This document shows, piece by piece, positions 2,645-45,620 of a stretch of DNA of 55,180 bases. A model generated the notes under the pieces. It saw only the letters and a list, made by a program, of their open reading frames with translations, was not told the DNA's origin and did not search any database. This stretch comes from a virus. Position 1 is the first letter of the stretch; each line of letters starts with the position of its first letter. The stretch spans positions 1 through 55,180 of the IMG/VR virus record IMGVR_UViG_3300025732_000052. The stretch is one strand, 5' to 3'. The position numbers and the translations under genes are program-made.

Positions 2645-2698
2645 ACCCCGGCTTTTTACACCGGGGTCTAATCAGAGGGGTAAACCAACAAACCCTCT
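2645..2698 (-). terminator. terminator hairpin downstream of the Cys-rich virion genes
   Basis: There are two hairpins in tandem. The stronger pairs ACCCCGG (2645-2651) with CCGGGGT (2661-2667); on the minus strand it is followed by a T-rich tract. A second pairs 2674-2679 with 2693-2698. They lie between the stop of the 147-residue gene and the promoter of the metallophosphoesterase gene, so they most likely end the virion transcript. Confidence 0.7.
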
Positions 2699-2746
2699 TA
2701 GTACTTATACAATATTAATATAGTAAATGATTTTTAATTATCCAAA

Positions 2747-43100: not shown

Positions 43101-43184
43101 ATTATATGGCTAATACATTGATTAACACTCGTTTGAGCGAGTATAAACAGCATTTAGGCTCAAAGCGTCACTATATGAGTGGGT

Positions 43185-43559
43185 ATGGAAACAATAAAAG
43201 AAACATTAGATATTAAAGGAGTAACAATTGAGTTAGTTGTTAAGCTTCCTTATGGTAGAATGATAGAGCATTGCATCACTACAGTAGAAGGTAAAGAAAG
43301 ATGGGGATACATTAGTAACCCTGTTTTATTTGCGCACATCTGCTATCATGGTAAGTTTGCGTTTACGCTAACCCGTAAGGAGTTTGCTGATCATATTAAG
43401 GTAGATATGAGTGATGCTCTTAACAGGCTAAGAGAAAAGACTGTCGCTTTCTTAAACAACGGTTATGAGTTAAACGAGGGTACTCGTTGGCATGAAAGAG
43501 CTGTTGAAGAAAGAGATAGTCATTTGGCTTTCTTACCTAGAATTTTTGGGGGGGCTTAG
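43185..43559 (+). CDS. early protein of unknown function (124 aa)
   Basis: This 124-residue protein starts at the ATG at 43185 (METIKETLDIKGVTIELV); a GTG two codons upstream exists but is less likely. The N-terminal 60 residues are beta-rich and the rest helical (MSDALNRLREKTVAFLNN). There is a basic patch near RWHERAVEER. It follows the repeat-rich control region directly, so it could be an early regulator. No family was recognised. Confidence 0.55.
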   Translation: METIKETLDIKGVTIELVVKLPYGRMIEHCITTVEGKERWGYISNPVLFAHICYHGKFAFTLTRKEFADHIKVDMSDALNRLREKTVAFLNNGYELNEGTRWHERAVEERDSHLAFLPRIFGGA

Positions 43560-44762: not shown

Positions 44763-44851
44763 ACTACTATGGCGGAATAGGTAGACGCGCAGGACTTAAA
44801 ATCCTGTTGTCAGTAATGACAGTGTGGGTTCAATTCCCACTGGTAGTACCA
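44763..44851 (+). tRNA. tRNA-Leu (anticodon UAA)
   Basis: A full class II tRNA: the acceptor 5' strand ACTACTA pairs with TGGTAGT (one GU); the D arm contains GCGGAATAGGTAGACGC; the anticodon stem CAGGA/TCCTG holds the loop CTTAAAA (anticodon TAA); a long variable arm (GTCAGTAATGAC) follows; the T arm is GTGGG-TTCAATT-CCCAC; and CCA is encoded (44849-44851). It decodes UUA, a frequent codon in AT-rich phages. Confidence 0.93.
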
Positions 44852-45201
44852 AAAAACAACTTCTTACAGAAGACGGATTAGCACCGTTGAAAGAAACCTT
44901 GACTCCTGGGAGTAATTACCCAAGTGAGTAAATGCCTCAAGGTTACTGTGATGGACCCTGCTCTGCCAGTGCGCACTTTAGCAACAGGTGAACAGTAAAC
45001 TATGTTCAGTAAAATCTAAAAGCATGGTGATCATGCAAGGAGTTGTTTTTTAAGATCAACCCTGTGAATAGTATTCATAGGCCATGTACCATTAAGCATA
45101 CCGTAAGAACTGCTAAATGGTCATTCTAGTTACTGGGAATACATAACTAGTAACAACCCCCAGTAAGCTTGTCTGATCAACAGAAACTGCTGGGGTTTTT
45201 T
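44851..45201 (+). ncRNA. ~350-nt structured noncoding RNA with two domains and terminator
   Basis: No significant open frame is present, but structure is strong. Domain 1 is closed by an 11-bp stem (AAAAAACAACT 44851-44861 with AGTTGTTTTTT 45041-45051) and contains hairpins such as GACGG/CCGTT, AACCTTGA/TCAAGGTT (44895-44902 with 44937-44944) and GCATG/CATGC. Domain 2 has CTGTGAAT/ATTCATAG (8 bp), ACCATT-AGCA with TGCT-AATGGT, CTAGTTA/TAACTAG and finally CCCCAG/CTGGGG followed by six T, an intrinsic terminator. The RNA begins right at the tRNA-Leu CCA end, so it may be cut from the same transcript. It resembles in context the large phage RNAs GOLLD and ROOL, which lie beside tRNAs, but is shorter and I cannot match it to either. 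Confidence 0.65.
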
Positions 45202-45203
45202 AT

Positions 45204-45320
45204 AGTCAGGTGGCGGAATGGTAGACGCTAAATGTGAAAATTGGAATTGCGGTGTGGAAGCCGTAGTTCCGCTAACAAAATCACTTTACCATTACAGGTT
45301 CAAATCCTGTCCTGACTACA
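45204..45320 (+). tRNA. tRNA-like element A (Leu-type arms, atypical centre)
   Basis: The ends are those of a tRNA: acceptor AGTCAGG/CCTGACT (7 perfect pairs), Leu-type D arm (GCGGAATGGTAGACGC) and T arm ACAGG-TTCAAAT-CCTGT. No canonical anticodon arm with a 7-nt loop is found. The centre (about 60 nt) forms instead a long extended stem (AAATGTGA/TCACTTT) topped by TTGCGG/CCGCTAA or TGCGG/CCGTA. CCA is not encoded (the end is ACA). It may be an unusual tRNA with an intron, a degenerate tRNA or a tRNA mimic. Confidence 0.6.
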
Positions 45321-45336
45321 AATAATAAATCTAAAT

Positions 45337-45504
45337 ATGACAGTTAAAGAAAATACCTTAAGTGAAATCAACACTGACGAATCTGATTTGAACGAAGTCG
45401 AAGGAACAGGTCCTTACTGCTGTAATGTGAGGATGGTATTAGCACCTTCTGAAATAGTTTATGAATGCTTAGAATGTGGTGGTTGGTGTTACAGCAGTTC
45501 TTAA
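45337..45504 (+). CDS. 55-residue Cys-rich microprotein between the tRNA-like elements
   Basis: The frame begins MTVKENTLSEINTDESDLNE and ends with a Cys-rich half (YCC at 26-28, YECLECGGWC near 43-52). The first half is acidic and may be flexible. The second could be a zinc ribbon lacking part of the usual fold, or the core of a modified peptide. It is the only gene located between the two tRNA-like elements and has no promoter of its own in view. Confidence 0.55.
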   Translation: MTVKENTLSEINTDESDLNEVEGTGPYCCNVRMVLAPSEIVYECLECGGWCYSSS

Positions 45505-45511
45505 TAAACAT

Positions 45512-45620
45512 AGTCAGGTGGCGGAATGGTAGACGCTAGAAGTGAATAGATAAGTAAGTGTATTGTCACTTAAACAACTTTACTACTTATCATACAGGTT
45601 CAAATCCTGTCCTGACTACA
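45512..45620 (+). tRNA. tRNA-like element B (Leu-type arms, atypical centre)
   Basis: It shares 28 identical bases at the 5' end and 30 at the 3' end with element A (acceptor, D and T arms) but has an unrelated centre. Here GATAAGTA pairs with TACTTATC (8 bp) and an inner hairpin TAAGTG(TATTGT)CACTTA is present, while AAGTGA/TCACTT is an alternative pairing. A normal 7-nt anticodon loop cannot be assigned. No CCA is encoded. Confidence 0.6.

Follow-up and report, generated by a model that had tools for sequence, protein, structure and literature searches.

What is an RNA that has both ends of a tRNA but not its middle? The question is raised by two elements on the plus strand of a viral DNA stretch of 55,180 nucleotides (here called the window), element 1 at 45204-45318 with C74 at 45319 and element 2 at 45512-45618 with C74 at 45619, as delimited by reading the sequence. 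In element 1 the 5' strand of the acceptor stem (AGTCAGG, 45204-45210) is followed by a linker and Leu-type D arm (TGGCGGAATGGTAGACGC, 45211-45228), by a core of 65 nt that replaces the anticodon and variable arms and forms an extended hairpin (45229-45293), by the T arm ACAGG-TTCAAAT-CCTGT with the acceptor 3' strand CCTGACT (45294-45317), and by the discriminator A73 and C74 (45318-45319), CCA not being encoded. Element 2 repeats this order, with the same acceptor strand (45512-45518), a linker and D arm of the same sequence (45519-45536), a core of 57 nt with a possible H-type pseudoknot, AAGUGA/UCACUU with GAUAAGUA/UACUUAUC (45537-45593), the same T arm and acceptor 3' strand (45594-45617), and A73 and C74 (45618-45619). 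An earlier note on this DNA had described identical ends of about 28 and 30 nt, perfect 7-bp acceptor stems, Leu-type D arms and canonical T arms, and all of these can be read off both elements: the shared ends measure 28-29 nt (5') and 30 nt (3'), the acceptor strands pair in seven of seven positions, the T arm carries a TTCRANT loop and the D arm has the GG able to make the elbow.

The centres, as the note had also claimed, are mutually unrelated in sequence, and a search for a 5-bp stem with a 7-nt anticodon loop found none in either element. The neighbouring ordinary tRNA-Leu(UAA) (44763-44851, plus strand, acceptor ACTACTA, CCA encoded), which lies outside the class and serves for comparison, has a centre of 35 nt. 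It was the sole call of an ARAGORN search of the window for tRNA and tmRNA; neither element was called and no tmRNA was found, by which a tmRNA is rejected. Nor are the elements ordinary tRNAs that ARAGORN missed, as neither folds as one. The Rfam tRNA model (RF00005, cut-off 29 bits) gives element 1 38 bits and element 2 17.6 bits. Against dinucleotide shuffles the whole elements fold with z -4.4 and -2.6, and the cores alone with z -3.1 (element 1) and -1.1 (element 2, no better than shuffles). Dead tRNA pseudogenes are likewise rejected, the stems being intact in the window and showing compensatory changes in relatives, where pairing was partly selected.

Judged from its sequence, the window is a fragment of a crAss-like phage; its terminase is 24-26% identical to Crassvirales terminases over 84-89% of its length among the matches listed, and also matches PHROG 6681, terminase. 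Both elements recur, with their cores the same, in a near relative (L017, whose contig is 114,558 bases long), and a relative of each core was found in one further locus (L001 for element 1, L113 for element 2). The pair cannot be a chance resemblance, because the same two ends occur together on about 300 other loci. A pattern made of the D segment and T loop at a spacing of 45-75 nt retrieved 37 viral stretches with 38 elements and 21 distinct cores; although the acceptor formed no part of it, AGTCAGG was present in 33 of the 38 elements and 16 of the 21 distinct cores, the other five having another acceptor. The 5' or 3' part alone matched at least 119-120 viral stretches each, and an exact AGTCAGG lies 36-203 nt upstream in 278 of 310 distinct 3'-end matches, compared with 67 of 310 in a downstream control window, a figure raised by adjacent elements.

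We defined the shell as acceptor AGTCAGG/CCTGACT, T arm ACAGG-TTCRANT-CCTGT, A73 and C74, and stem pairing was part of element selection, with at most one mismatch in the acceptor and at least four of five pairs in the T stem. So defined, the class comprises at least 557 elements (a few of them wrongly parsed by the simple rule, as in L212) with at least 457 distinct interiors, on 312 of the 339 loci collected, and the largest array has at least 12 elements within one locus. The 457 interiors fall into 312 families, 235 of them singletons, and the Chao1 estimate is 864 families, all at arbitrary Smith-Waterman thresholds (36 for the first set of 266 elements, 262 plus 4; 34 for the full set). 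The window's own copy (L038) and a near relative (L254) were excluded from later comparisons, leaving 553 elements. In the first set 252 of the 266 elements overlap no open frame of 80 or more residues, and of 453 distinct contexts 320 have a neighbour within 1 kb that is a tRNA or a further element.

The carriers are diverse: the window is crAss-like, one carrier (L320) has a terminase 49% identical to its counterpart in Flavobacterium psychrophilum phages, another (L003) a DNA polymerase with 72% identity to the one in Flavobacterium phage immuto, and carrier contigs reach 311 kb (L208). No protein family common to the neighbourhoods of the elements was found, the widest cluster being present at 37 of 312 loci; cluster 2 contains the L320 terminase. 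In a collection of 84,980 species, each represented by a single genome, the 5' pattern occurs on five contigs, which we read as phage contigs, and the 3' pattern occurs on one contig per genome in the genomes that bear them. Among bacterial genomes of the phylum and the family of G021, which supplied one of these contigs, the 3' constant part was found in 1 of 395 and 1 of 294, both times on that same G021 contig, and the constant end is therefore not a common host tRNA end there; a host-derived tRNA end is rejected. The full exact 3' end was found in no described phage among 60 of 399 matches listed, and in neither of two records of cultured Flavobacterium phages related to carriers, even with 3 mismatches allowed. 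The crAss phages cr4_1 and cr108_1 and one megaphage match it at 3 mismatches only. In the complete human-gut genome of crAss-like phage cr4_1 (NC_055893.1) this site, at 67844-67867 on the minus strand, belongs to an unannotated tRNA-like element that has, by eye, a 9-nt loop where the anticodon would be. Further tRNA-like elements with abnormal centres have other acceptors (L016 1310-1465, GGTTGGG; L043 751-846, minus strand, AACCGAG; L025 2628-2718, AGGTGAG), and from these the class may reach beyond the AGTCAGG shell.

How constant the shell is must be judged with its selection in mind, most loci having been gathered by shell patterns, which inflates all such figures. AGTCAGG is exact in 484 of the 557 elements and, with one representative per family, each position of the acceptor 5' strand is 96-99% constant, both under a selection that permitted one mismatch. 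Where T-stem pairs depart from the consensus, 104 of 113 still pair, 46 of them by changes on both sides, under a selection for four of five pairs. The ends resemble each other as closely across core families (0.93) as inside a family (0.91), and ordinary tRNAs of the same loci, in the 16 largest one-anticodon groups, have ends only 0.54-0.72 alike, a comparison in which the element ends are partly selected. A73 is present in 398 and C74 in 446 of 453 distinct contexts. The D arm is variable among elements and sometimes replaced; a D-arm-like fold is found in 264 and a GG in 299 of the 312 family representatives. The last base of the core is U in 264 of the 312, which would be compatible with an A15-U48 tertiary pair. 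One very short element (L288, at a site matched from L319 4985) has 22 nt between acceptor and T arm, and consists of the shell and one small GG hairpin; L319 has a longer element there.

A helix ends exactly 2 nt 5' of the T stem, the position of the variable arm in the window tRNA-Leu, in 57 of 160 first-set cores, compared with 6.9 in shuffles, and cores folded by themselves have modestly low energies (mean z -0.84, with 39% below -1, Wilcoxon p 8e-14). Relatives do not show decayed centres: cores are conserved within families, at a mean identity of 0.87 that is partly set by the clustering threshold, and covariation was seen in both families tested, by shuffles that do not correct for relatedness. 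In family A5 (five sequences) ten cells changed on both sides, with a score of 0.400 that none of 500 shuffles reached; the signal in family A6 (six sequences) is weaker, with four cells and a score of 0.344 reached by about 3-4 of 500 shuffles. Crossing helices are weakly enriched over all cores (z 3.8), but a general H-type pseudoknot is not indicated, with only 8 of 77 cores above their own 95th percentile. Neither a shared motif (the best 7-mer, TAAGATG, occurs in 9 of 160 cores, 1.3 expected) nor a known RNA family unites them: non-tRNA Rfam models gave chance-level overlaps in the window stretch to E 5, such as snoZ242 at 14.7 bits, and nothing for the cores in six array loci (to E 0.01) or 17 loci (gathering threshold).

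Cores move as cassettes, because unrelated cores occur in near-identical flanks and one core occurs in four different flanks. We compared elements from different loci with homologous flanks directly on both sides, tRNAs and elements being masked, and among 167 such pairs 108 had identical, 9 related and 50 unrelated cores. Both flank matches reach at least 60 nt and 80% identity in 41 of the 50, which represent about eight sites by eye and include one pair (L098/L168) that by eye is in fact related. In one pair (L021/L034) about 200 flanking bases contain one difference and the two shells match completely, down to an unusual ACCGG/CCGGT T stem, yet the cores are unrelated; at another site five phages have five different cores. 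Conversely, one and the same 36-nt core recurs in four settings whose flanks show no visible relationship over 60 nt on each side, its carriers differing in D-arm and T-stem variants, and D-loop inserts are found with different cores, some of which occur elsewhere without the insert.

Ordinary tRNA genes are also replaced in place, at 4 of 56 sites and with the same isotype in the pairs listed, compared with 8 of 62 sites for elements, and exchange itself is therefore not peculiar to these RNAs; what is peculiar is that the part replaced is unrelated. At 97-99.9% flank identity replacement affects none of the 18 tRNA pairs and 4 of the 20 pairs of elements, and at 90-97% 6 of 12 and 8 of 12, though the inner tRNA part compared is short, and a low identity within it is a weak sign of replacement. 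Among 15 listed of 170 candidate empty sites most are arrays with or without one element, or with a different element; one (L196, compared with L189 and L199) looks like a real empty site, with no target duplication visible.

The sequence before the elements resembles the leader of ordinary phage tRNAs. Preferences for U at -1 and A at -4 are known for bacterial RNase P, and these bases precede 379 and 319 of 453 elements, compared with 435 and 421 of 641 ordinary tRNAs of the same loci. The enzyme gauges the acceptor/T stack and not its sequence, in the account given in PMC4919913. With a stack of 7+5 pairs and a matching leader signature the elements are predicted, from sequence, to be RNase P substrates. 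Some leaders contain a candidate promoter: TAnnTTTG, a Bacteroidota promoter motif, starts at -12 in 14 of 453 element contexts (0.34 expected), and at -12 in none and at -14 in four of the 641 ordinary tRNAs. Near positions included, about seven of these contexts are independent by eye, and because the motif begins at -12 there, some element RNAs probably start at A1 itself.

We consider it probable that the elements are a phage class of tRNA-shelled RNAs in which the shell serves to mature and protect interchangeable RNA cores, in the manner of a tRNA scaffold. The shell, that is the acceptor helix AGUCAGG/CCUGACU on the T arm, then A73-C74, would be the part measured by tRNA end-processing enzymes, with the D arm, where present (as is usual), supplying the GG for the elbow. 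In the sequences themselves an exchangeable RNA core stands where those two arms, anticodon and variable, would be, at times joined by a further insert within the D loop, and cores pass between phages as cassettes, through recombination that runs across the constant ends or close to them. Host tRNA machinery would cut the 5' end by RNase P, or transcription would start at position 1 in the seven or so promoter contexts, and the host would trim the 3' end and probably add CCA, yielding a stable RNA, protected from exonucleases, that displays its core where an anticodon arm would sit. The earlier note had offered, among other readings, RNAs that are tRNA to enzymes but serve another purpose, or RNA scaffolds, and this part of its interpretation is the best fit to a constant shell, tRNA-like leader and tail, and structured, exchangeable cores; its intron-bearing tRNAs are not supported, and its decoys for anticodon-cutting toxins are unlikely.

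The least certain step is what the cores do. Perhaps they act in trans as effector RNAs that would bind and block components of host defence or of rival phages, a suggestion we make tentatively. Such a role would explain the diversity and turnover of cores, and this diversity, the multi-copy arrays and the in-place swapping suggest that the RNAs serve as effectors in an arms race, be it against hosts or against other phages. It is conceivable, if again doubtful, that Bacteroidota phages share an open-ended library of effector RNAs on one host-matured, tRNA-shaped carrier and retarget it by swapping cores. If so, the class would be the RNA counterpart of hypervariable protein anti-defence islands.

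Of the other explanations, the one that survives best, though unlikely, is that the elements are antisense RNAs of superinfection immunity or regulation, whose cores target phage transcripts and define immunity groups by their differences. The exchange of cores among close relatives is reminiscent of a switch of immunity, the leader is of tRNA type, and phages provide a precedent in the C4 RNAs of P1 and P7 and the CI RNA of P4, which are RNase P-processed antisense RNAs. Like the elements these are small phage RNAs whose specificity differs between related phages, but they have no conserved tRNA shell and act by antisense pairing, of which element cores give no sign in their own loci: over loci of 8-15 kb and the window, the mean longest antisense match is 9.25 nt, compared with 9.31 nt in controls (n=273), and the two window cores reach just 10-12 nt in the whole 55 kb.

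Slightly less likely is that the elements are decoys which titrate enzymes that attack or modify the acceptor end or elbow of tRNA in abortive defence, the core merely barring use in translation. Toxins that attack the acceptor end, for example nucleotidyltransferases or acetyltransferases, are known, the constant part is precisely the acceptor/T stack, and there are several copies per phage; such a decoy nevertheless leaves covarying, exchanged cores unexplained. The decoy for anticodon-cutting toxins that the earlier note proposed is unlikely as worded, because the anticodon arm is what the elements lack and there is no anticodon loop to offer such nucleases.

We think it improbable, too, that they are selfish or drifting tRNA-derived cassettes with functionless cores, in which the ends persist by recombination alone. 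In-place replacement of ordinary tRNA genes in the same loci and the existence of short or odd variants would fit such drift, but compensatory changes in the T stem and in two core families, the likeness of cores within families, the tRNA-like leader and promoters positioned at the first base all argue for function. That they are functional if strange tRNAs, expanded or, as the earlier note had suggested, intron-bearing, and decode in phage translation, is largely refuted and most improbable, for despite the tRNA shell our test recognised a normal-looking anticodon arm in only 7 of the 557 elements (L073, for one, has a Lys(UUU)-like arm) and in none of the other 550, the interiors form 312 unrelated families and not one intron family, and cores range from 23 to 162 nt (262 elements of the first set).

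The preferred reading, a tRNA shell carrying exchangeable RNAs, has relatives in kind. tRNA-like RNAs in general are familiar, as tmRNA, viral tRNA-like structures and TMERs, but we know of no precedent for a single conserved tRNA shell that holds unrelated and exchanged cores by the hundred; to our knowledge the tRNA fold has served as a general RNA carrier solely as a laboratory tool. tmRNA likewise joins the acceptor/T domain of a tRNA to a larger RNA that contains pseudoknots, but differs from the elements in its tag reading frame and in the degenerate state of its D arm. Another is the engineered tRNA scaffold, which, as described in PMC3753655, keeps the acceptor, T and D arms, puts an RNA cargo in place of the anticodon arm, and has that cargo processed and protected through the tRNA shell; that scaffold is artificial, whereas the elements occur naturally in phages, conserve a single acceptor sequence and carry hundreds of cargos that are exchanged as cassettes. 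The TMERs of MHV68, on the description in PMC11499242, also join a viral tRNA-like part to other RNA cargo, several per genome, but belong to a eukaryotic virus and carry their stem-loops behind a complete cloverleaf, from which tRNase Z severs them, whereas here the cargo lies inside the tRNA. Allo-tRNAs and selC* tRNAs are, in the report of PMC7609411, likewise metagenomic and of unusual architecture, some with an A1:U72 pair, but keep an anticodon and decode, whereas the elements have no anticodon arm.

Searches of the open-access literature, a scope that mostly leaves out subscription papers, listed no title or abstract describing such RNAs, and the class is apparently a large, so far undescribed set of phage RNAs. 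If our reading is right, the tRNA fold serves bacterial viruses as a general vehicle for RNA domains of other kinds, hundreds of which are new and each of which brings its own natural tag for expression and stabilisation, and constant flanks around a swapped core give a comparative handle for finding targets. Counts of phage tRNAs may include non-decoding RNAs, because the Rfam tRNA model scores a number of elements above its cut-off.

Several further features of these loci may be recorded. Between the two window elements lies an open frame of 55 residues (45337-45504, plus strand) with, by eye, an acidic N-terminal half and five Cys in the C-terminal half. A stretch of about 200 nt between tRNA-Leu and element 1 looks structured by eye and contains a candidate freshwater-1 RNA (RF02979, cut-off 72) at 44947-45014 on the plus strand with 66.3 bits; others are at L054 4124-4186 (70.1 bits) and L151 8501-8562 on the minus strand (70.0 bits), and all three fall just short of the cut-off and lie near tRNAs and tRNA-like elements. 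Genes for tRNA-Glu, -Met and -Pro differ strongly in their inner parts between flank-homologous phages while keeping the isotype (L163, L176, L205, L215, L251, L145, L134, L154, L098, L010, L015 and L004). One carrier has a candidate phage-encoded, reduced RNase P RNA between its tRNA-His and tRNA-Met genes (L003 1366-1600, minus strand), which spans the full RF00010 model in 235 nt with 49.7 bits (cut-off 100; E 1.6e-14). Pistol self-cleaving ribozymes are present on two element carriers, in the window at 43127-43188 (plus strand) and in L036 at 2664-2725 (minus strand).
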